From positions 1-32,215 of IMG/VR virus record IMGVR_UViG_3300020205_002541: DNA of 32,215 nt; one strand, 5' to 3'. Source of the stretch: a virus. The notes beneath the pieces were generated by a model, which was not told the DNA's origin, did no database searches, and saw only the letters and a list, made by a program, of their open reading frames with translations. Numbering within the stretch: the first letter of the stretch is position 1; every line of letters starts with the position of its first letter. The position numbers were made by a program, and so were the translations under genes. Below, one piece after another: positions 19,373-31,450 of this stretch.

Positions 19373-22300
19373 TTATCTCTTAAGTGCTACGGCTGCGTCT
19401 TTAAGATCTTTTGCGGCTTGATTAAAAAGAGCAATATCATCCGAAGAAAGCCCTAACGATTGTCGACTTTCTACTTGATTTTCCATTAAGTTTTTAGTAC
19501 TATCTATTATCAAACCAGACAAGGTCTTTAAAGAGTCGCTGAATTGACCAGTGGCAGAATTTAATACTCCTCCAGCTTTAATTAGATCGTTCTGCCAGCC
19601 AGCCATAGCGTCTTGTGTTTCTTTTATTGTTTTTAGGTCCCCTTCAGGCTCATTTAATTTTGTTTTTGTGCCAGTGTATGTACCCTCTTTAAGAACACCT
19701 GAAACGTTAGATAGCGATATACCTGCGCCCTCTAATCTTGCTAACTCACCTGGTGTGTAATCTGACGGCGAAGACTTGCCTTCAAACAACTGCATAAGTC
19801 TGTCTTGTTTTATTCCAGTAAAAGATGAAATTCCTGCTGTTTTATATTTTAGTGTTTCTTTTATTTTATCTTTATCTATTTTTCCATTTTTAAGAAATAC
19901 ATTACCAAGGCCCTTGTTGGTTATCTGTCCCATGGATTCTTCTTCATTTAGGCTAGTTAACCAACTCGTTAATTCCTGAGGTCCTAACTCTGAAGCTGCA
20001 GCAAACTGAAATGGATCTTTTATGCCTAATTTTGTTAAATTCTTGTTAACTATTAGGTCTTGAACAGTTATCTGAGAGCCGCCGCCTCGCATCAACTGAC
20101 TTAACCTGTCGATTCCAGATTTAACAGCGCTCTGCCTCATCTCTTCAGATGCGCCAGGCATGCTCGTCTGGCTAGCTAATAGTCCGCCGGTAAGCATAGA
20201 CGTAACACCTGATGTGACATTTATTCCTCTTTGTGCGAAAGAGGAAGACAGCTCCGCAACTCCAGCAGTCATATCCGATAAAACTTTTGCACCATTTACG
20301 CCGCGCTCAACCGCATTAGCTAGTATCTGCTCAAAGTTTGCAGCAGATCCATTTCCAGCACCGGCGGCATTTAACTGTCCAAGCGATTGAAAGTACTGTT
20401 CGCCAGATATCACTCTTGCTTTTTGCAACTCGCTTGCCCTATTGGTCATCTCGCCAGATGTAAAGAGACCTCTTTTAGCGTTTTGGTAATTTTGATAATA
20501 CGAATCCGTAAGTGTTCCAATCATTGGGGCACCAGGAAAATATTGTTGTGTAGCGCTCCAGTTTGAGCCTAAAGCCGCTGCACCCATTTTTGTAAAATTA
20601 ATTAAATCTTTAGGGGCGGTAACTGTTGTAGCAAACCTGCCTCCAAGATACCCTCGCTCATTTACGGTTGTCATTTGTTGAAATTGATCGCTGGCGCGAG
20701 ATCCCATACCCATAACCGCATCTGCAGCGCCAAAACTATAATCCATAAGCGCTTGACCAGTTTTTGCTCTTATGTAGTTTTGTTGTGTTTGTTTTTCTAT
20801 TTCAGCCCCATAGGTGCCAACGGCAGCCTCTGTTGCTTCAACATTAATAGAGTTTAATGTCTGAGCAGTCCCCAATCCAGCAGCTGTCACACCGGCTGCG
20901 GTCTTCACGTTTTTTGCGGTGAGCACACCTTTAAATAACTTAGAGACGCCGCCCGCCGCCCTCATCGCCTTGATTCCTAAAAGTCCGCCTCTTGCTGCAT
21001 TACCCACACCCGCAGTCAGAGGTATTAAACTTGCAACAGTTGCAAGACCCAATGCTGTATCAAGTGCACTAAAACCTTTAGATTTTCCACTAGCACTCGA
21101 TGCCTCCTCAATCGCCTTACTTTGACCGCTATTAAGGATGGCGGACATTACGTCTCCACTGGCTGCCGCATTCTGAATATCGAATCTGCTGTTTGCGATT
21201 CCAATTCTTGCAGCTTCTGCTTTGGTTTTGGCAATCGGCGTTGACACTACAACATCTCTGCCAAAACTAGATATATTTCTTAACATGTCCAGAGCTGCAC
21301 CACGCGTGTTATATTTTTCTTGTCGACGCTGTTCGCCCACGTCAACTGTATTTCTTTGTCCGGCTATCTGCTCGCCTAAGTCCGTTGCCTTCTTTGCAAC
21401 ACTCTCTAGCTCTTCCGCGGATGCAGTTCCTGATTTTTTTAAATTATCTAGAGTTTCTATCACCTCTAAAAATGCTTTATCTAATTTAGATAGCGTTTCT
21501 TTTTCTTTTTCTACGTCTATTTCGGGTGCATCTGACAATCTAGCTTCTTCTTGTCTATAGTTCACATCTTTTTCTGTGCGCGCTATTTTTCCTATCATAC
21601 CCTCGAGATCTGAACCCTCTCTATGTTGAAGCTGTCTTGCCTTAGAGTACGTGGAGCTTAAACTAATATTTTCTTCAAGACTCTTTCTCATCTCGTCTAT
21701 TTTTTTAATGCTTTGCTGCTGTCTTCCTTTTATATCTTCAGGTCTTTCCCTATCCCCAGGCAACCTAGAGATGGATTCTAGCTCTGCTTTGATACTTGAA
21801 CTTAATCTAGACCGCTCTTTTCGCAATCTATCGCTTTCTTTGTCAAGAGATGCTGCACCATAGCCTTCTTTAGCGGCTAAGGCGCTTATAAGTGTTTCTG
21901 GTCTTGAGGCTTGAACGCGCACACTTGTTTCTAGTTGCTTTTCTTTTGTAAAAGAAGAGATTGACATTGCGTATTTTTTGCCAGCCTCAACTGAGGCGTA
22001 TTTTTCTAATCGCCTTCTTTCTTCTTCTTTTTGCAGTATTGCGTTTTTGCGCATCTCAATGCCGCGTTCAATTCTGTCACGGGCATCTTTTCTCTTTGCG
22101 TCTGTTAAATCTTTTTTTTGAATATTTTTTAAAGCAGCATGTGCTTCTTCTTGCTGCCGTTTTAAGTCTTGTATTCTGTCAGAAACTTTTTGAGCTTTTA
22201 AGGAGTCAGACTCTAACTTTTGTTTAAAGCCAACCGTAGCCTCTTTCATCGATTTGCCTAAAGCAAGAGCACTATATTCCATAGAATCAGGTTCTTGATA

Positions 22301-22417
22301 GTTACTGCGCGTATTGGGTTCTATCGAGCTTCTATCTGTAATATTTTCTGATCTACTTTTGCTGCGCTCTAGTAATTTTTTAGCTTTAGCTAATTTATCA
22401 TCATCATCCAGCGCCAT
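19373..22417 (-). CDS. Tail tape measure protein
   Basis: A 1014-residue protein that sets tail length and may leave the tube on injection. Residues 1-380 are mainly charged, helical and low in complexity (KRQQEEAHAAL, KEEERRRLEKY), fitting a long coiled coil. About 450-490 is hydrophobic and Gly/Ala-rich (LGLATVASLIPLTAGVG), a likely membrane-active segment. The following half is Ala/Gly-rich and helical, with the last 70 residues again helical (LTLSGLIIDSTKNL is the style). It follows the chaperone pair directly; the ATG shares a base with the chaperone stop and has GAGGT about 7 nt upstream. At the rule of about 0.15 nm per residue this predicts a tail near 150 nm. No lysozyme or peptidase domain is evident. 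Confidence 0.88.
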   Translation of the reverse strand: MALDDDDKLAKAKKLLERSKSRSENITDRSSIEPNTRSNYQEPDSMEYSALALGKSMKEATVGFKQKLESDSLKAQKVSDRIQDLKRQQEEAHAALKNIQKKDLTDAKRKDARDRIERGIEMRKNAILQKEEERRRLEKYASVEAGKKYAMSISSFTKEKQLETSVRVQASRPETLISALAAKEGYGAASLDKESDRLRKERSRLSSSIKAELESISRLPGDRERPEDIKGRQQQSIKKIDEMRKSLEENISLSSTYSKARQLQHREGSDLEGMIGKIARTEKDVNYRQEEARLSDAPEIDVEKEKETLSKLDKAFLEVIETLDNLKKSGTASAEELESVAKKATDLGEQIAGQRNTVDVGEQRRQEKYNTRGAALDMLRNISSFGRDVVVSTPIAKTKAEAARIGIANSRFDIQNAAASGDVMSAILNSGQSKAIEEASSASGKSKGFSALDTALGLATVASLIPLTAGVGNAARGGLLGIKAMRAAGGVSKLFKGVLTAKNVKTAAGVTAAGLGTAQTLNSINVEATEAAVGTYGAEIEKQTQQNYIRAKTGQALMDYSFGAADAVMGMGSRASDQFQQMTTVNERGYLGGRFATTVTAPKDLINFTKMGAAALGSNWSATQQYFPGAPMIGTLTDSYYQNYQNAKRGLFTSGEMTNRASELQKARVISGEQYFQSLGQLNAAGAGNGSAANFEQILANAVERGVNGAKVLSDMTAGVAELSSSFAQRGINVTSGVTSMLTGGLLASQTSMPGASEEMRQSAVKSGIDRLSQLMRGGGSQITVQDLIVNKNLTKLGIKDPFQFAAASELGPQELTSWLTSLNEEESMGQITNKGLGNVFLKNGKIDKDKIKETLKYKTAGISSFTGIKQDRLMQLFEGKSSPSDYTPGELARLEGAGISLSNVSGVLKEGTYTGTKTKLNEPEGDLKTIKETQDAMAGWQNDLIKAGGVLNSATGQFSDSLKTLSGLIIDSTKNLMENQVESRQSLGLSSDDIALFNQAAKDLKDAAVALKR

Positions 22418-23300
22418 TAGAATACCTCATTTATATCTTCGCCAAAGTCTTCGCCATATATAGTTTTAGCGTGTGCCATCTGATCTTCCATCCATTGCCT
22501 GTCTTCTTCCGATGGCATCCACTTTTTGTCTTGCTTTTGATCTTGAGCGTCGTTGTGTTCTTCTTGATCTCGCTCTCGATCTTTAGCTTCTTCTTCAGCA
22601 GCCCAAGCCATGGCATCGTCTATTTTCTTCTGTTCTATCTTATCAGCTTCTTCTTTTGACTGATCTTTAATGGCGTTTTCTCGCTCCACTTTGTCGCGGA
22701 ACTCGTAATAAAGCTCTTCTAATGTGTAGGATAGTAAAATAGGATCTTTTAGTGGCCTATTATAGGTTTTAGACCACCAATGCTGTAGGAATCTTGTAAT
22801 TGATTTTTCGTTATCTAGTGACTCTCTTGCGTTTGCCTTTACGATCCGATCTATGCACGCGAAAGTCGAATTTGCATAGTCGGCGCTTAGTTTCCCTTTT
22901 CTTCACTCGCAGCAAGCTTATCGTTGCCAGTCTTTGCGGCATCTTCTTTTGCTTTTGCTGCTTTTTCTAGTTCTTTTCGCCAAGAGTCTGATTCTTTTTC
23001 AACGCGCTCGTATAGAGAAAAAAGAGCATCTTCATCTTCCATCATCAAACCGTTGCTCTGCTTCCACCACTCTGGACCATCTTTTATCTTAGTTCTTAGT
23101 GTGCTAAGTGCTACTGCTGTGCCTAGAAGGCCATTGGTTGGATTGGCCATATCTGCAAGTAGACGAGATTTTTCCAACTCTAGAGAGTATCTATCTGCTA
23201 CGCTTAGTCTGCATTTTATAGTGAAGTATCCTTCATATGTAAAACCAAGCTCTCCGTCGTGTTTGAAATAAAAAGTTCTTTCTTTTTTAGGCAGTTCCAT
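22417..23300 (-). CDS. Tail assembly chaperone, frameshifted long form (gpGT-like)
   Basis: A -1 slip at G GGA AAC (22890-22896) moves the ribosome into a frame that stays open for 157 codons, giving a product of 294 residues. The extension reads LSADYANSTF..., then a helical T-like domain with LQHWWSK, YNRPLKDPILLSYTLEELYY and an acidic, Gln/Lys-rich helical tail to EVF. The last 90 codons of this frame begin at an internal GTG (22689) without a Shine-Dalgarno sequence, so a separate gene there is unlikely. The long form is expected in small amounts. It should bridge the tape measure and the short form, as in lambda. Its stop TAA shares one base with the tape-measure ATG (TAATG), which couples the two. 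Confidence 0.85.
22846..22896 (-). promoter_or_regulatory. Programmed -1 frameshift signal: slippery site and bulged stem-loop
   Basis: The heptamer GGGAAAC (22890-22896) sits in the zero frame as G GGA AAC, followed by stop TAA. After a 6-nt spacer (TAAGCG), CCGACTATGCA (22873-22883) pairs with TGCATAG, a bulged A, and TCGG (22846-22857): 11 base pairs around a 15-nt loop. Slippery site, spacer length and stem are those of a standard bacterial -1 frameshift element. Confidence 0.9.
22887..23300 (-). CDS. Tail assembly chaperone, short form (gpG-like)
   Basis: A 137-residue protein in the slot between the tube and tape-measure genes, where tail chaperones of the lambda G/GT type lie. It is beta-rich at the N-terminus (ERTFYFKHDGELGFTYEGYF), then helical and charged, ending ...EEKGN. 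The stop overlaps the end of a frameshift site: the last codons read aaG GGA AAC TAA, a canonical slippery heptamer. The short form would be the major product, binding the tape measure and guiding tube assembly around it. The start has AGAGG 5 nt upstream and a TATAAATA late core before that. Identification rests on position, size and the frameshift signal together. Confidence 0.85.
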   Translation of the reverse strand: MELPKKERTFYFKHDGELGFTYEGYFTIKCRLSVADRYSLELEKSRLLADMANPTNGLLGTAVALSTLRTKIKDGPEWWKQSNGLMMEDEDALFSLYERVEKESDSWRKELEKAAKAKEDAAKTGNDKLAASEEKGN

Positions 23301-23322
23301 ATAGACCTCTTAGCATTTAGTT

Positions 23323-23330
23323 TATTTATA
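23323..23330 (-). promoter_or_regulatory. T4-type late promoter core TATAAATA
   Basis: The minus strand has a perfect TATAAATA about 23 bp before the chaperone gene's ATG, in a 73-bp gap that also contains the AGAGG ribosome-binding site 5 nt before the start. A 7-bp stem with one GU pair (CTCTATT / AATAGGG, loop AAAC) lies just upstream of the core. Exact matches also occur by chance inside coding DNA elsewhere in the window, so placement carries the argument. Confidence 0.6.
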
Positions 23331-23373
23331 CCCTATTGTTTAATAGAGCCGTAATCTTATTTAAATATTTATT

Positions 23374-23886
23374 TTATTGTGCCGGCTCAAGAGGCTCTGG
23401 TGGTGTTTCTGATTGCCAGCCAACTGCTTTCCAATTTAGTGTAGTGGTAGCCATATCGTCTGCATTTATTTGAGATTGTTGATTTGTTACGATAGCCTTA
23501 TCGGCTTTAAAAATTAACTCGCCGCTTGACGAGTCGCGTATTTCTATGGTTATGTATTTATTAGATAAAAAAGCAAGAGAGTCCGACTGGATTCTTTCAT
23601 TCTGTGGACTTCTGCCCGGGATCTGCAGCAATCCAAGTGTGCCTTCAACTAATATCTTTGTAGGGGCTATCTCATGTGGCAATACGTCGTCTATGGCGTA
23701 TATCTCTCTAGCGTCAGTCTGTATACTCCAAGACACACTAAAAGCAAAACCAACAACCTTACCGTTTATTTTTAAAACTGTTCTAGCACCAGACATAAAT
23801 TTAGCGCCAGGACGCGTAGAAAAAATACCCGGCAATGAAGTGGGAGTGTTTTTGCTGTCTCTATTGAAACCTAGACGAGCTGCCAT
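23374..23886 (-). CDS. Tail tube-like protein, copy 3
   Basis: A 170-residue protein that resembles the two tubes more weakly: GARTVLKINGKVVGFAFSVS aligns with the TGSNxKxKxxGxxxAYAxDxSY region of copies 1 and 2, and VEGTLGLLQIPG with their GSFxxxRY strand, but it lacks the terminal DDSF motif. A separate N-terminal extension (RPGAKFMSG) precedes this. AGGA 8 nt upstream supports the start. Its fold is probably that of the tube, and a structural ring next to the tube (tube-baseplate junction) or a tail-tip part is plausible. The assignment is inferred from position and weak similarity, and I cannot exclude another small tail protein. Confidence 0.6.
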   Translation of the reverse strand: MAARLGFNRDSKNTPTSLPGIFSTRPGAKFMSGARTVLKINGKVVGFAFSVSWSIQTDAREIYAIDDVLPHEIAPTKILVEGTLGLLQIPGRSPQNERIQSDSLAFLSNKYITIEIRDSSSGELIFKADKAIVTNQQSQINADDMATTTLNWKAVGWQSETPPEPLEPAQ

Positions 23887-23895
23887 GATTTAATC

Positions 23896-24480
23896 CTATG
23901 CATTTAATTGACCGTTATCTGATGAATTAGCTATAAAACTATCTTCATCTAGATACTGCGCAACAAATTGAAAAGTCTGCGTCATTAACCCCTTAGGGAT
24001 CGAAGACTGTACATCTACTATTCTACAGTTTCTTATTTTAGTAAGTCCACTGCTTACCATCTTATTTTTAGAAAAATCTTTTTGTGTCTGCCATACTTCT
24101 ATGTCAAATGTGACAGCATTGTGAAGCTCGCTTGGATCTAAAGAATCGCTAGCTCTTCCGTCTACGAGATCTATTCCTACTTTGCGTGCTGTGTCTGATT
24201 GCCAGTAACCAATTCCGTTTCCTTTATTGCTTGAGCTAGCGGGGGCATTTTCTAATGTTTTCTTTCTTGTGCCTTCTGAGTATCTTATAACAGTAAAACT
24301 ACCTCTTACGGAGTAAGAGGTAGGCTCTAATGAATGAACTTCGTATGCACCAAGTGTTTTAATTTCTTTGTGAGGAATAGATACAGAATAGCTAAGATCC
24401 CTGGCATAAGCCAATGTAACGCCATTAACTTTAATCTTACAGTTCGAGCCTGTTACAAAAAATGGTGGTAGATTGGCCAT
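23896..24480 (-). CDS. Tail tube protein, copy 2
   Basis: A 194-residue paralogue of the preceding tube gene. Shared landmarks are FVTGSNCKIKVNGVTLAYA, SYSVSIPHKEIKTLG, YEVHSLEPTS, GSFTVIRYSEG, the GNGIG turn, a DPSELHN segment, NCRIVDVQSSIPKG, and YLDEDSF near the C-terminus. The ribosome-binding site is weak (no clear purine run before the ATG), unlike copy 1, so it may be made in lower amounts. It could be a second tube subunit, a tube-initiator or a terminator ring that copies the tube fold, as the baseplate-proximal rings do in other contractile tails. The copies are too diverged for a recent duplication. Confidence 0.8.
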   Translation of the reverse strand: MANLPPFFVTGSNCKIKVNGVTLAYARDLSYSVSIPHKEIKTLGAYEVHSLEPTSYSVRGSFTVIRYSEGTRKKTLENAPASSSNKGNGIGYWQSDTARKVGIDLVDGRASDSLDPSELHNAVTFDIEVWQTQKDFSKNKMVSSGLTKIRNCRIVDVQSSIPKGLMTQTFQFVAQYLDEDSFIANSSDNGQLNA

Positions 24481-24498
24481 GTTTATCTATTTTATATA

Positions 24499-25041
24499 TT
24501 AGGTTAGATCAGTTGACGAGCTTGAAGATTCACCAACTTCAAAAGAGTCGTCATCATAAAGTATACCAACAAAATCATAATTCTCCACCATAACGCCACG
24601 CTTGCTTATGCCAGAGGTAAGTCTTGTCAATCTACAGTCACTTATTTTAACTAATGGCTTGCTGGGGTCCTGACCTGGAGCATTTCTTTGAAATATTTCT
24701 ACGTCTACTGTAGATGTGGATAACATTTTAGATGGGTTAAAGGCATCTTTTTGTCCGTCATCTGCGAGACCTTTGCCAAGCTCACCAACACCATTCCCTT
24801 TTGGGGCTGCGAGTGGTAAAGCAGCGTTTGCGGTATCGGTGTACCTTACTATGCTAAAAGATCCAGCAACGTTTACAGCAATGGGCTCGTTTGTTACGAC
24901 TTCGTACCTTCCCATGACTTCAACAGGAACCACGTCTACAGTTACTGCGTAAGACACGTCAGTTGCATATGCTATAGTTTTGCCACCTATTTTTAGTTTT
25001 GCATTACTGCCCGTTACTAAACCCGGTTTTTTGCCCGCCAT
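24499..25041 (-). CDS. Tail tube protein, copy 1
   Basis: A 180-residue beta-rich protein of the tail-tube fold, the subunit of the inner tube that the sheath surrounds. It opens MAGKKPGLVTGSNAKLKIGG and continues with the pattern AYATDVSYAVTVDVVPVEVMG and an RY motif near 65. It closes with a segment on DCRLTRLTSGIS and DDDSFEVGE. AAGGAG lies 6 nt before the ATG. The next gene is a clear paralogue: it shares TGSN, AYA-D-SY, EV-EP, GSF-RY, GNG-G, an acidic DDSF/DEDSF motif and similar length. The gene is only 18 bp upstream of copy 2. Which copy forms the main tube and which the ends cannot be told from sequence; the strong ribosome-binding site suggests this is the major tube subunit. Confidence 0.85.
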   Translation of the reverse strand: MAGKKPGLVTGSNAKLKIGGKTIAYATDVSYAVTVDVVPVEVMGRYEVVTNEPIAVNVAGSFSIVRYTDTANAALPLAAPKGNGVGELGKGLADDGQKDAFNPSKMLSTSTVDVEIFQRNAPGQDPSKPLVKISDCRLTRLTSGISKRGVMVENYDFVGILYDDDSFEVGESSSSSTDLT

Positions 25042-25136
25042 TTTTTCTCCTTGGGACTCTAGAGCCCTATTACGTTAGAGTTTCACTGCACAATGCAGCA
25101 TCAAGATCATATAATATCATGCTCTCTGTCATGACT

Positions 25137-25144
25137 TATTTATT
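25137..25144 (-). promoter_or_regulatory. Possible late promoter for the tube genes
   Basis: The minus strand reads AATAAATA about 95 bp upstream of the first tube gene. This matches 7 of 8 positions of the T4-type late core TATAAATA. The tube genes need their own promoter if the terminator after the sheath is efficient. The evidence is this short match and position only. Confidence 0.25.
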
Positions 25145-25147
25145 TTT

Positions 25148-25334
25148 CTAGTATTTTACACGCCTACCACCTAATAAACTTAGTGTCAGATTAGGATTTC
25201 TACAATACTTGGCAGCAGCAGTAAGTTTTGATGTGGCTCTAATCTTAGCCAGCCTTTCCATTTTAAGAATCTGCTTTAATTTGTCTTACTTGCTTTGGGT
25301 TAGAGACATCTGACGCACATGTAGAGCATCGCAT
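25148..25334 (-). pseudogene. Possible broken small zinc-motif gene
   Basis: A 23-codon frame from the ATG at 25334 (MRCSTCASDV, with CxxC) stops at 25263. A second frame, starting at 25261 (MERLAKIRATSKL) and ending at 25148 with KYCRNPNLTL and GGRRVKY, is offset by one base. Removing one A from the AAA of the codon run ATT AAA GCA joins them into a smooth reading of about 61 residues across QIKQILKMERLAKI. This fits a small basic, possibly zinc-binding protein disabled by a one-base insertion, or a sequencing error. No good Shine-Dalgarno sequence is visible. I do not recognise a family, and chance remains possible at this size. Confidence 0.35.
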
Positions 25335-25353
25335 TCTGTCTTAAGACAGCCAG

Positions 25354-26529
25354 CTATTGCGATCTTAGCCAATCAATCACCTCAGACTGAGTGCCACTAA
25401 ACTGTGGAAGTCTAACACTAAGAGTTGCATATCGTTTGATGCGCCTCTTCACGCCATCTGTTAGTGTTCCATCGCGCAGCGACAAACGATGCCCAATCAT
25501 ACCTTCATCTTCATTTATGATGGCCGTAAAGCATCTAACGCCGTTTTGCGCCATAGTCTTAACGAACCTGGTTGCCTGCGTATTAATAACAACTAAGCTC
25601 TTATCTTTGGCTGTTAATGCTGCATCTAGTGCCTTATCGAAGCCTAAAGCATCCACATCGATGATGTTGAAGTTGTTGACCCGCTTAGATGCCCACGTTT
25701 TGCCAGAGCCAGATGGCCCACACAAAACGTATATTGATGGTTTCTTACTGGCCCACGCAACAGGATCTATTGAGTAGTCTATCTCATTGCCCCAAAGCTC
25801 TAGATATTTCAGTCCCTTGTTGTTGAAGAAGTTGCGCTTCCTATTGTTGGAGGCCAAGTGTTTTTGCTGGTTGTGCCAATAGTTACCATGCACGTCTAGG
25901 TACGTGTCTATCTCTGGGATATAGATGTCAACTGTGTAAAAGTCTTTTATAACCTGATTGTGGGCTAATGGGTAGGTTTGCTTTATCTTGTTTAAGACTT
26001 CGGTTTCTAACTTCGAAGTCTTTTCTGATTGCATCTTTGCTAAAGCTTTAGCGTGTGCAATTTTATTTTCTGGTAAAAGTCTAAGTTTCTTAAGAAGCTC
26101 TCCCCCATTATCGTCATTTATTTTTTGTTTTTCAGTTCTATTTTCAGGTTCGGTGTACCAGTTCATAGAGCACTTAACGGAGCAAAACTTATTTTCTCTT
26201 TTTAGGTGAGATTTGTGCTTCTGTAGCGATGTTTTACAGCACGCACACTTTACTGTAATCAAACCGCCTCTATAGTTAGGATTGTTTTGTCCTGATATAT
26301 TTTTAAAATAACATTTCTTGTGAAATCTAGGTGATTCTGCTTCACCTTTTGGGATTGGTACTATTTCGCCGCACACTTCGCAGTTATTAAGAGATCGACC
26401 GTTTTGTGTAAGAGCATCTGTCTTATATTGCTCTTTAGTGTATTCAGTGGAGCAATGTATTTTATAATGTCGGCCCATGAGTCCATTGAGTTGCTTGGTC
26501 TGTAGGTCGCAAAGGTGGCATTTGTACAT
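25354..26529 (-). CDS. Homing-endonuclease-like protein fused to a P-loop kinase-like domain
   Basis: A 391-residue protein that probably belongs to a mobile gene rather than the virion. It starts with a C2H2-like finger (C4, C7, H21, H25), then a second zinc site (C50, C53, H70, C73), the motif NPNYRGG at 83-89 common in phage homing endonucleases, and a third site (C95, C98, C116, C120). Residues about 175-252 look like a Vsr/EDxHD-type PD-(D/E)XK nuclease: E177, D201, then YLDVHGNYWH with D212 and H214, and YLELWGNEI. Residues 265-391 form a P-loop domain with Walker A GPSGSGKT (271-278) and a basic segment RR-IKRY that could be a kinase lid. It sits between sheath and tube genes, which are normally adjacent, and both of those are intact, so it is free-standing and not intron-borne. 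What the kinase part does is unknown. Confidence 0.8.
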   Translation of the reverse strand: MYKCHLCDLQTKQLNGLMGRHYKIHCSTEYTKEQYKTDALTQNGRSLNNCEVCGEIVPIPKGEAESPRFHKKCYFKNISGQNNPNYRGGLITVKCACCKTSLQKHKSHLKRENKFCSVKCSMNWYTEPENRTEKQKINDDNGGELLKKLRLLPENKIAHAKALAKMQSEKTSKLETEVLNKIKQTYPLAHNQVIKDFYTVDIYIPEIDTYLDVHGNYWHNQQKHLASNNRKRNFFNNKGLKYLELWGNEIDYSIDPVAWASKKPSIYVLCGPSGSGKTWASKRVNNFNIIDVDALGFDKALDAALTAKDKSLVVINTQATRFVKTMAQNGVRCFTAIINEDEGMIGHRLSLRDGTLTDGVKRRIKRYATLSVRLPQFSGTQSEVIDWLRSQ

Positions 26530-26531
26530 AG

Positions 26532-26570
26532 AAAAACCCTCTACCAGGATTCTACTTAGTAGAGGGTTTT
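26532..26570 (-). terminator. Rho-independent terminator after the sheath, overlapping the next gene's RBS
   Basis: Arms 26559-26570 and 26533-26544 (AAAACCCTCTAC / GTAGAGGGTTTT in the minus-strand transcript) are perfect 12-bp complements with a 14-nt loop, and the RNA ends in a U5 run. It lies 20 bp after the sheath stop. The 3' arm contains GAGGG, and the ATG of the endonuclease gene follows after 7 nt, so the only plausible ribosome-binding site of that gene is inside the stem. Confidence 0.85.
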
Positions 26571-26590
26571 GATTTACTTACTTGATTTAA

Positions 26591-28390
26591 TTAAGCCGTT
26601 TGACTAGCGCGTTGCAAAGTAATGTCGTTCAATACAAAGTCTATGCCTTCCACTAACTTAACCGTAACTGTTATGTTTATGATGTTACCTTGAATCGTAA
26701 CTGTAAGATCCTTAAATCCTTGTGCAGCATCTGTAGAGCTCACTGTTATGCCTTGAGATAGGAAGGTAGCAAGTACGGATTCTGCAGTACTTTTAACCTC
26801 ATTGGCGCTCAATGTGTTTTTGACACCCACATATCTAGTTTCCATAGTGTTACGGAAGTTGTATGCCACTATATCAGCTGCATACAGTACGTTGCCTCTA
26901 TTGTAGACCCAGTTGTCATCAACGCCATATGTTGTGTTATCTACGACAACTCTAAAGCCACCTGTTTTTGGTGCTTCTAGAAAAGTAACACCAGATTGAA
27001 TTGCATCTTCATACTGCGTATCTGGATCAAAATCAAGTGTAATGTCTTCTTCTGGCGTTGTCATGGCTTGATCTGTATGACGCGCGCCCGAACAATTTAA
27101 AAACTTAAATGTCATTGGGAGTCCCACGGATGCACCACCTCTTGCTCCAGCTAGAAGACAAGCTAGCGCCCATGGCTGAAACCACTTTATGGTACCCGCT
27201 GCGTCAATTTGACGAACGTCTTGAATTACAAGTTGAATTCTTGCATCTGCAAGATCTCCAGCTTTCTCTTTTGCTGCAACATAAGAAGACTTAAGTGAAA
27301 GATATCCTTGTCTTTCAGATCTCTGCTTAGTTGTTTTCATAAGTGAGATGTGTGTCTTTACGGCTTGGTGTATCGCGTCGATTTGATAATCAGAATCTTC
27401 GTCTGTTAAAGAGTCTGATATGTCGTCATCCGCATCTCTTGAAAACAATGGAACAACAGAGTTTACATGAATTTTTTCAAATTTAGTTAATGCAGTCGTG
27501 ATATCAGAAGAAGTAGTTGCTCCCTTTTCTCCACCAGTTAGTGCAGCCTCTGCGATCGCATTTGGTAATCCGCTTGTTGCGCCAGACGTTACAACTAGAT
27601 TTGCTATTTGACTTTCAGCAAAAACTTCTCTAACTTCGTGTGCGTCTTTCTTAACAGACGATGCAGCCGTTACGTGGTCGAGCACGTTAGGCGATAGCTG
27701 ATTATATATTGAAGAGGTTATGGCTACTGGAGCCGTTGGCGATAGCAGGTTGAGCGCTTCTACTAGCTGTTTGATTGTTTTAAAATCAGATTTAGGCAAT
27801 ACTGTTGGAGTTCCACCGTTTACTGATAGTGAGACAGTTGTTGCTGTTATTGTTAGTGTATCGTCTGCGTCAAGTGTTATTACTGTGTTTCCACCGACAG
27901 TTGCAGTTTCAACTATAAGATCTCTTTTTTGAGAGATGGTGATAGTTCTAGTAGAACCAGAGCCTTCTATTTTAATAGTTGCTCGATTTCCGCCTGTTCC
28001 CCATTCAATGGCTCTAACTTTAGAATCACACCACCCGGTGCCTGTAAGAGCTTTTTCTGCCCTTACTGATGCGTTTGTTTTATAAACCCAAACTGTTTGA
28101 GCTCCGCTTGGGATGGCTCCATCAGCTGCTGGTGCAAAAAGAAACGATAATGCTTCCATAATTGGACCAGATCTATACTTTGCTCTTGCTTCAACTAAGC
28201 GATCTGCAGTGTAAAAGTTATTTGATATGTTAACTTCATTTGCTCCAGGTGTCCCAGAGTCTGCTTCACCAAAGATTGCGATAAGTCCAGTTCTCCCAAG
28301 TGGAATATTTCCACCTAAATCAACTTGGGTTTTCGAATAGCTACCAGGGCGATAGATGGTTGCGCCGTTAAAAGATGTACTTATTGCCAT
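26591..28390 (-). CDS. Tail sheath protein
   Basis: The contractile sheath subunit, which polymerises around the tail tube and shortens to drive it through the host envelope. The start at 28390 (599 residues, MAISTSFNGATIYRPG) is chosen over an ATG seven codons upstream because GAGGAG lies 5 nt before it. The N-terminus has the usual sheath opening (YRPGSYSKTQVD, then GLIAIFGEAD). The middle (about 150-300) is a variable beta-rich insertion. The C-terminal third carries the typical GGFRVVVDNTTYG and the segment with NFRNTMETRYVG, ending in a beta-strand region (ITVTVKLVEGIDFVLNDI). The length fits large-phage sheaths. A hairpin terminator follows its stop, which lets it be expressed separately from the tube genes. 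Identification is firm. Confidence 0.93.
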   Translation of the reverse strand: MAISTSFNGATIYRPGSYSKTQVDLGGNIPLGRTGLIAIFGEADSGTPGANEVNISNNFYTADRLVEARAKYRSGPIMEALSFLFAPAADGAIPSGAQTVWVYKTNASVRAEKALTGTGWCDSKVRAIEWGTGGNRATIKIEGSGSTRTITISQKRDLIVETATVGGNTVITLDADDTLTITATTVSLSVNGGTPTVLPKSDFKTIKQLVEALNLLSPTAPVAITSSIYNQLSPNVLDHVTAASSVKKDAHEVREVFAESQIANLVVTSGATSGLPNAIAEAALTGGEKGATTSSDITTALTKFEKIHVNSVVPLFSRDADDDISDSLTDEDSDYQIDAIHQAVKTHISLMKTTKQRSERQGYLSLKSSYVAAKEKAGDLADARIQLVIQDVRQIDAAGTIKWFQPWALACLLAGARGGASVGLPMTFKFLNCSGARHTDQAMTTPEEDITLDFDPDTQYEDAIQSGVTFLEAPKTGGFRVVVDNTTYGVDDNWVYNRGNVLYAADIVAYNFRNTMETRYVGVKNTLSANEVKSTAESVLATFLSQGITVSSTDAAQGFKDLTVTIQGNIINITVTVKLVEGIDFVLNDITLQRASQTA

Positions 28391-28552
28391 AAAAACTCCT
28401 CTATAGGACATAAGATGCTTGGTTCATTCATTAAGATTATTGTACTATGTTGCGTTAGTTAATTTTATTAAAACATCAATTAGGTTTATAGATATTAATG
28501 TTTAGTTTGTGCGGTTATATATGTTTATTTTTACATTAATATAATCAATGGC
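28391..28552 (-). other. AT-rich leader of the sheath gene
   Basis: This 162-bp gap without a gene is very AT-rich. It ends in a strong ribosome-binding site, GAGGAG, 5 nt before the ATG at 28390. It contains a TATAAACC, 6 of 8 matches to the T4-type late core TATAAATA, and a TACAAT without a good -35 partner. A promoter for the highly expressed sheath gene is expected here, but I cannot fix it. Confidence 0.35.
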
Positions 28553-29182
28553 TTATGTGTCCCCTTGATTTAATACTTCGGTCTCTAAATCATACGGGTC
28601 CTCGTTGCTTACATTTGAGTTCCATGTATGGAACACCGTGCATCTCATTCTAACCCACCTTGTCCATATGTTTTCTGGCATCTTAGATTGTTCTTTTTGC
28701 CAGTCTGTGGCAGAAAAAGTTTGCAACTCTATTCCCATACTTTGGGCAACATTTTTATGTTTAAAAAGTATATAGGATAGTATATAGTACATCCACAGCA
28801 CCTGATCTGCTGCCTTACTTCCATGTATCCCTATATCTATCATAACGCTAAAGCTGGATATACCAATATCACCGCTGTCGTCGCTTCCATAGTAATCAGA
28901 CAAACTGGCGTTTGCCTCCATCTCTGAATCTGATGATAGGTGAATGCTATAGCATGGAACTGTCTGTGGGCTAAGTATCCATGAGTGAACCGTTCTTACT
29001 TTCTCAGTAGAGAACCATTCCCATATTCTATCTACATAGGCCTGACCGTAACTCTCTGACATTAGAGGGTGACTTATTTGAAAGTCAAAAATAGCATCAA
29101 ACGCTGCTCGATCCTGTCTAAGCTGTTGCACACCGTATTGGATTAGGCGCTGTATCGCTATCTCTGGCATAACGTGTGACAT
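28553..29182 (-). CDS. Putative tail terminator/neck protein
   Basis: A 209-residue soluble protein directly upstream of the sheath gene. The opening MPEIAIQRLIQYGVQQL is helical. It is followed by a segment HPLMSESYGQAYVDRIWEW and a beta-rich centre, in the style of the small neck or tail-completion proteins found next to sheath genes in large myoviruses. The start is well set: an ideal AGGAGG lies 7 nt before the ATG, within the last codons of the preceding gene, whose stop is 1 bp away from this start, so the two are probably translationally coupled. The likely role is to cap the tail or to join it to the head. Position supports this more than sequence does, and a baseplate-independent connector subunit is an alternative. 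Confidence 0.5.
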   Translation of the reverse strand: MSHVMPEIAIQRLIQYGVQQLRQDRAAFDAIFDFQISHPLMSESYGQAYVDRIWEWFSTEKVRTVHSWILSPQTVPCYSIHLSSDSEMEANASLSDYYGSDDSGDIGISSFSVMIDIGIHGSKAADQVLWMYYILSYILFKHKNVAQSMGIELQTFSATDWQKEQSKMPENIWTRWVRMRCTVFHTWNSNVSNEDPYDLETEVLNQGDT

Positions 29183-29183
29183 A

Positions 29184-29825
29184 TTAACGCCTCCTAATAT
29201 CGCTTGTTGCTATTTTTATATACTTGTTTATTATACTGTCGGCTATTGTTTCTATTTCTACTATCATCTTTGAATTTAAATCCATTATAGACGCAGTTAT
29301 ATCTTTATTTGCCTTAAACGATGGAGAATCAGACTCTCTATGGTCTTCAGTTATCTGATTTTTATTTTTTGAAACTTTATTTTTAGGTATTGTAATCATT
29401 GCGGCTGCCACTTGCGAAGCCATTTCGGATAACTTATTCTGGCCATCAACACTACTCGTTACCGCACTTTGTTTTTTAGATACAGTTATGTTAGGTTCTG
29501 ATTGCCTTTCTGTGACGTTAGACTGCTTTTTTGCCCATGGGAGTTGTGGAAAAGGAATATCAGATACATCGTGATCATTATCTGACGACGGAGTCATATG
29601 CACGTATCCAGAATTAAAATCTAATTCTATATTTTTTAAAATCATACTGGGTGATATGCCATCTGTGGCGGCAACTTGAGACTCTGAAATTATCTTGACC
29701 GCCAGTGCCATTGCACTGCTTTTTATCTCTTGTTGAGCGCTTGTGCAGTAATACGCTATTCTATTTTTAGGAACACCTTTTTGTTCCATATGATATTCCA
29801 TATTTTTGATCTTATTGAATATCAT
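29184..29825 (-). CDS. Hypothetical protein in the neck region
   Basis: A 213-residue protein I do not recognise. The N-terminal 60 residues look helical (AQQEIKSSAMALAVKIISES). The middle, about 75-160, is polar and probably disordered. The last 45 residues are helical and end in RRR. No catalytic motif, signal peptide or membrane segment is visible. The stop of the NUDIX-fusion gene lies only 5 bp upstream. Three start candidates (M1, M9, M13) fall within a 12-bp inverted repeat: M1 and M13 are in the arms and M9 is at the loop edge. None has a clear Shine-Dalgarno sequence, so the true start is uncertain. The AGGAGG that serves the next gene is inside its last codons (the RR of the C-terminal RRR). 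Its position suggests a neck or head-completion part, but that is guesswork. Confidence 0.6.
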   Translation of the reverse strand: MIFNKIKNMEYHMEQKGVPKNRIAYYCTSAQQEIKSSAMALAVKIISESQVAATDGISPSMILKNIELDFNSGYVHMTPSSDNDHDVSDIPFPQLPWAKKQSNVTERQSEPNITVSKKQSAVTSSVDGQNKLSEMASQVAAAMITIPKNKVSKNKNQITEDHRESDSPSFKANKDITASIMDLNSKMIVEIETIADSIINKYIKIATSDIRRR

Positions 29826-29828
29826 ATG
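29787..29828 (-). repeat. 12-bp perfect inverted repeat over a translation start
   Basis: CATATGATATTC at 29787-29798 and GAATATCATATG at 29817-29828 are perfect reverse complements separated by 18 bp. In the minus-strand transcript this folds into a 12-bp stem that buries two candidate ATG codons, at 29823-29825 and 29787-29789, and leaves a third (29799-29801) at the loop edge. There is no U-run after it, so it is not a terminator. A role in translation control or as a protein-binding palindrome is inferred. Confidence 0.75.
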
Positions 29829-29830
29829 TA

Positions 29831-31450
29831 TTATGGTTGTTTGGCTATTTTTTTAACAACCACAGCTCTCATGTCTTTAACAAAGTTTTCTTTTTCCATA
29901 GATGTCCAGTCTGTTGCAAAGTCTATGGCTATGTGTCCACTTGGATGGACAACAACTCTTGGTTTTGATAGGTACATGTAATGTTGAGCATGAATTGCTA
30001 TAGGATTTTCTGGCGTGGAAGAGTATGCCTCAACCTTAGATGGGGTTTTGGTCTTTTTTTCTATAATATCTTGCAGCCGTGCGAGTTTGCTGTAAAGTTC
30101 GTCTATCTCTTTGCCGGCTTTTCTTGCTAAAGAGTTGTGCTTGTTTTGCGTCTCCGTAAGCTTTTCTTCTAGCTTATCAAATAGTTTTAATATCTTTTGC
30201 TCAATTTGTTGAAGATCTACGGCATTGCCATGCCTAATCTCTTCTCTTATATTGTGCATCTCGTCGTGTATGTCTGTTAAATTATACGACTTATAGTTGT
30301 CGGCAAGTTTACTTATGGCATCGTTTATTGTGTCGTCTGTTAGCTCTTCATCTGAATGAATCGTTAACTCTGGATTGTCTTCGGGGAGGTACCACTCAAA
30401 AACACTCATTACTTCTCCAGTTAGAGACGGCAAGGATCTATTGGAAAACTGATGAATCGTCTTAAGCCCATCGTCTATGTTCCCTGAATAAATATCGTTG
30501 GCGTGTTTTCTTACGTGTATGCGGTAGTCACCGAAATTAACTATTTTAGACTCGTCATCCTTCATGTCCTTGACAGCTTCTCTTAACATTCTATAAGCGC
30601 CATTGCCGACTAGTTTAAGTGCATCGCCATGCGTGAATTCATGAACTGCAGAATCTCTCTGTCCAGTTCTTATTATGTTTTTGTTCAACGACTCCTGCGC
30701 AATAAGCAATTTCAATGGTTTATTTTTATATTTAATAAGCGCTGTGTCTAAGTACGCCTTGAGTGAAGGATAGCAGCACGCACGCATGTCGTTTATGTCG
30801 ATATTGTCTATAGGATAGAAGCCTACGTCTTTAAGCTCTTCTGTTGAATGATGATTTGGCGTCTCTTTAAGTCTAACTAAGAAGGTCTTGTCATTGCCGA
30901 CTGTCTTTAATTCTTCTATATGATCAGTGCTTGAAAGAGAAACTCCAGTTTCTTCTTTTAATTCTCTTATGGCTGCGTCTTTTGCAGACTCGTTAGGCTC
31001 AATACCTCCACCTGGAATAGCCCACTGTCCTATTTCATTATCAAGGACACCATGGCGCCCAAATAATATTTCGCCTCTGTCGTTTACTACAACTATGCCC
31101 ACGCCGTTTTCTTTTGTCTTTTTAAGTGGTGTTGATTTTTTGTTTTTTGATTTCTTTCGCTCATGAGGTGCAACATTCTTAGATCTACCAATATCGTAAT
31201 CTTCGTGCGGTGATGCTTTGCCTTTGTTTTTATGACGCTCGTGGTGGGATTTCATGTTCTGACCATCCCATCTTCCACCTTTTAACTCTTTTCCCTGAGT
31301 TTCCGGAAGATCTTTATAGCTACCATCTAGATAGTAGCCGTTGGCTATATCTTTTGGCGGGCCTTTGTCGCCTCTTAGAGTGCTACGTTCCTTGCCGTTT
31401 TTGATGGCCATCATCATTCTATATTGTGCTTTACTTGTAAATGCTGGCAT
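29831..31450 (-). CDS. NUDIX hydrolase domain fused to a long coiled-coil protein
   Basis: A 539-residue multidomain protein. Residues 1-110 are basic and low in complexity, opening MPAFTSKAQYR, a style of N-terminus seen in phage structural-region proteins. Residues about 115-240 are a NUDIX domain: the box G-x5-E-x7-REUxEExGU is intact from G148 to V170 (REL KEE TGV at 162-170), so it is probably an active Mg-dependent pyrophosphohydrolase on nucleoside-diphosphate-X substrates. Residues about 240-390 are unassigned. Residues about 395-465 are strongly charged and helical, probably a coiled coil. The last 60 residues form a short beta-rich tail (PRVVVHPSGHIAIDF). An AAAGGG about 8 nt before the ATG supports the start. 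NUDIX enzymes are known from phages (T4 nudE), but one fused within the neck region suggests it could be virion-associated; that is inference, and the substrate is unknown. Confidence 0.8.
   Translation of the reverse strand: MPAFTSKAQYRMMMAIKNGKERSTLRGDKGPPKDIANGYYLDGSYKDLPETQGKELKGGRWDGQNMKSHHERHKNKGKASPHEDYDIGRSKNVAPHERKKSKNKKSTPLKKTKENGVGIVVVNDRGEILFGRHGVLDNEIGQWAIPGGGIEPNESAKDAAIRELKEETGVSLSSTDHIEELKTVGNDKTFLVRLKETPNHHSTEELKDVGFYPIDNIDINDMRACCYPSLKAYLDTALIKYKNKPLKLLIAQESLNKNIIRTGQRDSAVHEFTHGDALKLVGNGAYRMLREAVKDMKDDESKIVNFGDYRIHVRKHANDIYSGNIDDGLKTIHQFSNRSLPSLTGEVMSVFEWYLPEDNPELTIHSDEELTDDTINDAISKLADNYKSYNLTDIHDEMHNIREEIRHGNAVDLQQIEQKILKLFDKLEEKLTETQNKHNSLARKAGKEIDELYSKLARLQDIIEKKTKTPSKVEAYSSTPENPIAIHAQHYMYLSKPRVVVHPSGHIAIDFATDWTSMEKENFVKDMRAVVVKKIAKQP

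Follow-up and report, generated by a model that had tools for sequence, protein, structure and literature searches.

The gene and its nuclease

The window analysed here is the whole 32,215-base contig of an uncultivated virus (IMG/VR record IMGVR_UViG_3300020205_002541). Our subject is a gene on its minus strand at 25354..26529, which encodes 391 amino acids (aa) from an ATG start, i.e., a homing-endonuclease-like protein with a C-terminal P-loop kinase domain. It lies between the tail sheath gene (upstream, phrog_279) and the first of three paralogous tube-like genes (downstream), as the original prediction, made by a model from the letters alone, had stated. The open reading frame (ORF) is a genuine, conserved and intact gene, because it has relatives at 81-85% protein identity (L001, L002 and L003; L numbers denote related loci) and at about 40% (L006 and L007). 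These five homologues, of which L007 is truncated at a contig end, were aligned with the window protein. Among the close relatives, the whole-protein ratio of non-synonymous to synonymous substitution rates (dN/dS) is 0.06-0.08, which together with the intact ORF rules out a decayed or frameshifted gene. Recomputing the ORF and checking ligands and motifs in the five homologues, we found the predicted coordinates and motifs to be correct.

Residues 1-135 (26125..26529, minus strand) hold three Cys/His zinc-binding modules, including an NPNYRGG motif, and form the putative DNA-recognition part. The ligand sets (C4/C7/H21/H25, C50/C53/H70/C73 and C95/C98/C116/C120) are unchanged in 5/5 homologues. 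Residues ~92-155 of L002/L003 (L002:5276-5450) are sharply unlike those of the window and L001, with nearly identical flanks on both sides, which suggests that part of the DNA-binding region was exchanged.

The zinc modules are followed by a Vsr/EDxHD-type nuclease core (residues 173-252, 25774..26013, minus strand) with D201 and the motif D212-V-H-G-N-Y-W-H219. D201, D212 and G215-NYWH-N220, and with the latter H219, are kept in all five homologues, while H214 is replaced by Gln in L006 and L007. The Walker A residues of the C-terminal domain are likewise unchanged in these homologues. By eye, residues of this core may correspond to catalytic residues like D51, H64 and H69 of Vsr. The five-sequence profile of the nuclease stretch has a sole PDB match, i.e., 3r3p, the catalytic domain of I-Bth0305I (E=3.8e-5). 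Furthermore, the homing endonuclease family phrog_3339 has matches in the window protein (6.6e-4) and, more strongly, in L006 (3.9e-8), and the PADLOC 'homing endonuclease' (HEase) model matches the window protein with E=3.5e-5. Judged by these profile matches, the nuclease is of a known kind, namely the EDxHD/Vsr-like homing endonucleases. Taken with the kinase fold described below, they support the predicted joining of a homing-endonuclease-like nuclease to a P-loop kinase-like domain.

The kinase domain

Residues 263-391 (25357..25743, minus strand) form the P-loop kinase domain, with the Walker A motif GPSGSGKT, D293, and the arginines R348, R352, R363 and R366. Its dN/dS among close relatives is 0.04-0.08. 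An alignment of eight Vsr- and HNH-fused proteins, which cover three nuclease types, shows Walker A, D293, E340, I345, R348, R352, T357, R363 and R366 (window numbering) as well as the terminal F-x-G...E-V motif to be invariant. That is, the signature of P-loop kinases (Walker A, strand-2 acidic residue, lid arginines) is present and fully conserved in these sequences. The window protein reaches no curated family cut-off; for kinase families, such a cut-off was passed once, namely that of AAA_33 by the HNH version L028 (27.7 bits, cut-off 27).

We modelled the fold with AF2 on a ten-row alignment, since a single-sequence AlphaFold model was unusable (predicted local distance difference test, pLDDT, of 35). 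In the resulting model the P-loop domain has a pLDDT of about 76-90 except for one block at 68. Foldseek reports 33 PDB matches with E<=0.001, essentially all of them P-loop kinases or kinase-fold proteins, at modest target-normalised TM-scores of at most 0.6. Kinase chains of mammalian PNKP take the first five places (E 5e-6 to 5e-5), ahead of a group with gluconate, shikimate and adenylate kinases and RapZ at about 1e-4 to 1e-3. The gluconate, shikimate and adenylate kinases trail PNKP by no more than about tenfold to hundredfold in E-value. When the domain profile is compared with PDB sequences, gluconate kinase and guanylate kinase are among the better matches. With this pLDDT and these matches, the structure prediction retains the kinase core that the original prediction had named. 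We consider the C-terminal domain an intact P-loop kinase module that is predicted to use ATP.

Fold matches to many P-loop kinases, and a match to T4 Pnk confined to Walker A, settle the class of the fold but not that of the substrate. One explanation takes the domain as a polynucleotide 5'-kinase that would restore 5'-phosphates on DNA (or RNA) ends during break repair. This agrees with the leading PNKP matches, with phage polynucleotide kinases among the viral matches, and with a middle strand and lid pattern like that of AAA_33-type kinases, as scored for L028. However, the matches to gluconate, shikimate and adenylate kinases and to RapZ are almost as good, a phosphatase domain is absent, and the profile comparison with T4 Pnk (hhalign) aligns over 20 Walker A residues only, at a probability of 14% and with no similarity found past Walker A. 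Moreover, Vsr-type and HNH nucleases leave 5'-phosphates. Their own cleavage products therefore need no kinase, and 5' phosphorylation following the protein's own cut would be redundant. The example of DNA-end processing put forward in the original prediction, 5' phosphorylation after cleavage, has some weak backing from the fold and faces this problem of logic. Phosphorylation of 5' ends by this domain is possible, not favoured by the sequence, and we regard a role as repair kinase as unlikely.

A second explanation assumes that phosphotransfer was lost or never needed. The domain would then sense ATP or another nucleotide and gate cutting, comparable to the sensing of small molecules by RapZ-like domains of kinase fold. 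RapZ N-terminal domains are indeed among the fold matches, and such a gate would suit any nuclease type, in line with the fusions to both Vsr and HNH nucleases reported below. Against it, conservation extends beyond the nucleotide-binding loop to the residues of phosphotransfer, since the strand-2 Asp and the lid arginines are invariant in all eight proteins. A pure sensor thus seems rather doubtful to us.

Occurrence behind other nucleases

We scanned the collected related loci with the domain profile and found fusions to three nuclease types and a divergent fourth version of the domain. The Vsr type comprises the window, L001, L002/L003, L006 and the truncated L007. At the same sheath-tube junction, L057 and L069 carry the P-loop domain behind an HNH nuclease with an HIDH motif. 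A third set of proteins (L053, L079/L080) combines NUMOD3, HNH and the P-loop domain and is encoded antisense between the first and the second tube-like gene; these genes (L053:8739-9827 and L079:9125-10264, minus strand) mark a second insertion site for kinase-fused nucleases. The more divergent version belongs to the HNH protein L028 (with fragments in L027 and L029), which is antisense at the sheath-tube junction. Walker A and the Asp are retained in this version, as are most of the arginines; the one at position 348 is missing.

With L057 as reference, the identity of the P-loop domain to the other seven versions is 26-61%, and 26-43% across nuclease types. Given this conservation in different nuclease contexts, the domain is probably active and not a fossil. 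A chance match to Walker A can be ruled out, since the whole domain is conserved across the three contexts.

A tblastn search with the window protein, or with the P-loop domain alone, against 50,697 named phage records gave no match. The full HNH versions matched essentially with their nuclease part only in these records, and no fusion was found. Profile scans of genome contigs and viral sequences with the P-loop domain added, among the matches listed, only ordinary ATPases and kinases.

Variation at the sheath-tube junction

We compared 58 non-redundant junctions, obtained from 80 sheath-bearing loci plus the nuclease-bearing loci after removal of near-duplicates. 23 of the 58 are empty, 17 hold other ORFs, five a Vsr-type gene with P-loop domain, and five are unclassified. 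The remaining ones carry a same-strand HNH+P-loop gene (2), an antisense HNH+P-loop gene (1), a Vsr-type gene with another C-terminus (1, L093), decayed copies (2), or the downstream ORF discussed below on its own (2). The original prediction had considered the gene mobile; with 23 junctions lacking an insert, it is not always carried, and the comparison bears this out.

Remnants cover several stages of decay. The copy in L084 is a pseudogene with stops and an internal deletion, L004 has about 24 codons left, and in L049 and L028 the start-codon region alone remains as a scar. The history of the nuclease gene is, as far as sequence identities tell, independent of that of the sheath gene, i.e., horizontal. 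The sheath DNA of L001 and L002 is 96% identical and their nuclease genes 78%, while for the window and L001 the order is reversed, with 64% for the sheath and 80% for the nuclease gene. Between L001 and L003, identity falls across the nuclease gene and the first tube gene and is back up by about 8.5 kb.

The 5' edge of the shared, i.e., co-transferred, tract can be located at the last 36 nucleotides (nt) of the sheath gene (26591..26626, minus strand). Here the window and L001 are 97% identical, compared to 69% in the adjoining 39 nt. The same 36 nt are 67-86% identical between the window and empty sites. With the shared tract ending here, the site of cutting or of resolution may lie close to the 3' end of the sheath gene.

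It may be asked whether homing is needed to explain this pattern. The gene could reside at a cargo hot spot in an accessory or anti-competitor role and be moved by ordinary phage recombination only, with a nuclease that attacks rivals and does not home. Such a role would fit the unrelated ORFs that also occupy 17/58 junctions and the general mosaicism of these contigs. On the other hand, the profile matches are to homing endonuclease families (phrog_3339, 3r3p, PADLOC), and the exact placement at the foot of the terminator, the series of decay and the short shared flanks fit homing better. We therefore consider a mere cargo gene improbable and prefer a homing endonuclease.

A further member of the junction set bears on the role of the kinase. 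At this junction, L093 (L093:2186-3832) encodes a protein of 548 aa that is related to the Vsr-like homing endonucleases and matches phrog_3339 with E=3.6e-48. Its zinc N-terminal module is the same as in the window type, with 53% identity to L006, and heads a different nuclease. Its C-terminal region differs and yielded no identification, and the locus is without the TATAAT hairpin described below. Given that the N-terminus and a Vsr-like core are shared and the C-terminal region is exchanged, the kinase may be thought of as a nuclease-fused modification partner, i.e., it would phosphorylate bases or nucleotides of the carrier phage DNA such that marked DNA is spared and unmarked competitors are cut. 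The L093 C-terminus lends no identity to such a partner, however, a modified-base pathway was considered within the 32-kb fragment only, and in ordinary homing endonucleases the insertion already destroys the homing site. We thus rate DNA modification as very unlikely compared with a contribution to homing itself.

In the downstream flank, a 207-aa ORF follows the nuclease gene, intact, in L001-L003 and stands alone at the junction in L026 and L049. This conserved ORF of ~200 aa, for which no family or PDB match was found, is located at L001:6186-6809, L002:6183-6806, L026:7253-7843 and L049:1963-2565. The window has a frameshifted, decayed remnant of it at 25190..25352 (minus strand), seen by tblastn in one frame (E=2e-9) and in a second frame with a stop. 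An ADP-ribosyltransferase assignment of this ORF, based on an LHRGM...TSW pattern seen by eye, was unsupported by library or PDB profile searches, and we claim no function. Differing cargo ORFs at the junction share a peptide motif ~E-x-[LI]...[N/L]GQW-x-[LMI], often with Lys next to it (L013, L026, L049, L052, L063, L070, L072, L074, L079, L086 and L001), which is possibly a targeting or processing signal.

Terminator-like hairpin and expression

In nearly all junctions the sheath stop codon is followed by a terminator-like hairpin, and a separate promoter-like sequence and leader precede the tube gene. For the window, the intrinsic-terminator-like hairpin of the sheath gene is located at 26533..26570 (minus strand), with a minimum free energy of -19.8 kcal/mol (z -4.8). 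Its loop holds a -10-like hexamer TAGAAT (26549..26554, minus strand), which reads TATAAT in most relatives. Its 3' arm includes a Shine-Dalgarno-like GAGGG (26537..26541, minus strand), which is located 7 nt ahead of the ATG and is paired in the fold. In Vsr-type carriers, the ATG is placed a few nucleotides past the hairpin. An ATG is absent from this place in the HNH-type genes of L057 and L069, which probably start at ATT, with GGAGG or GAGGG upstream, as apparent from an alignment of the two (L057:7185-7240, L069:1275-1340).

In the kinase-fused versions, too, the Shine-Dalgarno sequence is part of the 3' arm and a TATAAT-like hexamer is present at the loop or apex. A match to TATAAT of at least 5/6 in the hairpin loop or apex occurs in 8/8 junctions with P-loop nucleases versus 2/40 of those that are empty or hold another ORF. 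The L028/L027-type hairpin may be the scar of a lost Vsr-type gene.

Proposed mechanism

We think that the gene probably encodes a free-standing homing endonuclease whose kinase module has a part in homing and whose expression is confined by the hairpin. Its spread among related myoviruses would begin with a cut in alleles that lack the gene, at the 3' end of the sheath gene or close to it; as the break is repaired with the carrier genome as template, the gene would be copied along. DNA would be recognised by the zinc modules and cut by the Vsr/EDxHD domain. The C-terminal P-loop kinase module would use ATP and serve homing, either through an action at the break, with DNA or nucleotides as its target, or by licensing the cut. 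We consider a use for homing more likely than a chance fusion, since HNH-type nucleases of this region have the module as well. With regard to expression, read-through RNA from the sheath gene would have the ribosome-binding site folded into the terminator hairpin. A promoter with its -10 element in the hairpin loop would in contrast yield a short RNA without the 5' arm, which would therefore leave the ribosome-binding site free. We infer cutting, homing, ATP use and promoter activity alike from the comparisons above.

A number of observations weigh against this interpretation. The link between kinase activity and homing is an indirect one. Structure prediction is unreliable for the nuclease part (pLDDT <50), such that the nuclease assignment is based on sequence. 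For the loop hexamer, the Fisher P of 1.2e-7 overstates independence since the Vsr-type hairpins are related by descent, and the pattern was noticed before it was tested. Furthermore, the -35 elements near the hexamer are weak, the hairpin-loop -10 site is not among the sites listed by a sigma-70 scan, and one of the eight TATAAT-hairpin junctions (L028/L027 type) has an antisense nuclease. Concerning horizontal transfer, L001 and L003 are also mosaic at 0-1750 of the same contigs, such that the dip in identity is not peculiar to the nuclease gene. Finally, we found no isogenic pair of empty and occupied sites; the closest empty relatives share about 75-79% of the sheath DNA. The likelihoods voiced here for the different explanations overlap in part and are not a partition.

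The usual picture of a homing endonuclease comprises a DNA-recognition part and a cutter, and to our knowledge no described member has a second, ATP-dependent step. That a kinase-type domain occurs behind three unrelated cutters in one genomic neighbourhood, and has retained its active-site residues, would imply such an unrecognised step in homing. The domain probably helps these nuclease genes to spread. The more specific idea that three unrelated mobile nuclease types share a swappable and active kinase module for a second, ATP-dependent homing step, whether this acts on DNA ends or bases or licenses the cut, is tentative, and we would not bet on it. Since empty, occupied, decayed and alternative alleles exist in the same region, the idea is directly testable. 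A promoter-in-terminator start, if true, would let a mobile gene settle between essential late genes economically and without disturbing them.

Neighbouring genes and the tube-gene leader

The upstream neighbour, the tail sheath gene, is annotated at 26591..28411 (minus strand; phrog_279, E=1.2e-38, 80 related loci), and its true start is probably near 28390 given the starts in relatives. The downstream neighbour, the first tube-like gene (24499..25041, minus strand), matches phrog_3776 weakly (0.003) and resembles the next two ORFs. Matches of the three paralogues are to phrog_3776, phrog_365 and phrog_985 and mostly weak, while the ORF at 23374-23886 matches phrog_3776 at 2.9e-8. Further upstream, a 539-aa ORF with a NUDIX-box-like stretch (GQWAIPGGGIEPNESAKDA) is located at 29831-31450 (minus strand) amid a presumed cluster of virion genes.

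Downstream of the insertion, the tube gene has kept an intact promoter-like sequence (extended -10 TGATATTAT) and a structured leader (25042..25120, minus strand; >40 junctions compared). A hairpin of this leader, directly upstream of the first tube gene, is conserved in >40 related junctions (e.g., L057:8316-8393 and L079:8511-8588). For leader hairpins with the loop AACCG(C)AA (20 distinct sequences), 79 of 80 stem pairs are intact, through many different types of pair, compared to at most 60 in shuffled sequences (n=1000); these hairpins were chosen to have at least 3 pairs, which biases the count toward pairing. We counted the pairs directly, as RNAalifold missed the second hairpin through misalignment. 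The window leader (25042-25110, minus strand) is a variant with a different loop. Rfam has no match for the leader in the window region or in seven relatives, and we propose the tube-gene leader as a candidate for a new structured leader RNA.

Comparison with known systems

The closest known relatives of the nuclease are I-Bth0305I and the EDxHD Vsr-like family, which share the homologous nuclease core, DNA-binding modules N-terminal of the nuclease, and the phage context. The matches to I-Bth0305I (3r3p) and phrog_3339 end ahead of the P-loop domain, however, and in the crystallised 3r3p chain the residues aligned to D201 and H214 differ from those of the window protein. The window gene also differs in being free-standing, with no Rfam match (introns included) within 22000-30000.

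Compared with PNKP, gluconate/shikimate and PhnN/guanylate kinases, the window-type domain differs in being about 130 aa long and fused behind nucleases, and its conserved C-terminal F-x-G...E-V motif sets it apart from them. In the literature searched, which covered few subscription journals, we came across no homing endonuclease joined to a P-loop kinase. The nearest precedents are the HNH-Rnl2 ligase and REase-Mom fusions of jumbo phages (PMC7824862), which likewise join a phage nuclease to a second nucleic-acid enzyme. Here, the partner is instead a P-loop kinase common to three nuclease types within one insertion-prone region. Apart from these HNH-RNA ligase and REase-fold-Mom precedents, neither a fusion to the kinase nor a kinase common to three nuclease types turned up in the literature searched or in named phages.

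With regard to expression, the proposed logic of a hairpin plus an internal promoter resembles that of I-TevI and SegB of T4 and MobE of Aeh1, where the ribosome-binding site is masked in long transcripts, and RNA without the inhibitory arm comes from a promoter located inside (PMC2988022). The nuclease families of these systems are unrelated to the window nuclease. In contrast to them, the hairpin of the window resembles the intrinsic terminator of the upstream gene and carries the -10-like hexamer in its loop. If confirmed, using the terminator of an upstream gene for the control of an endonuclease would be a new implementation of this logic.
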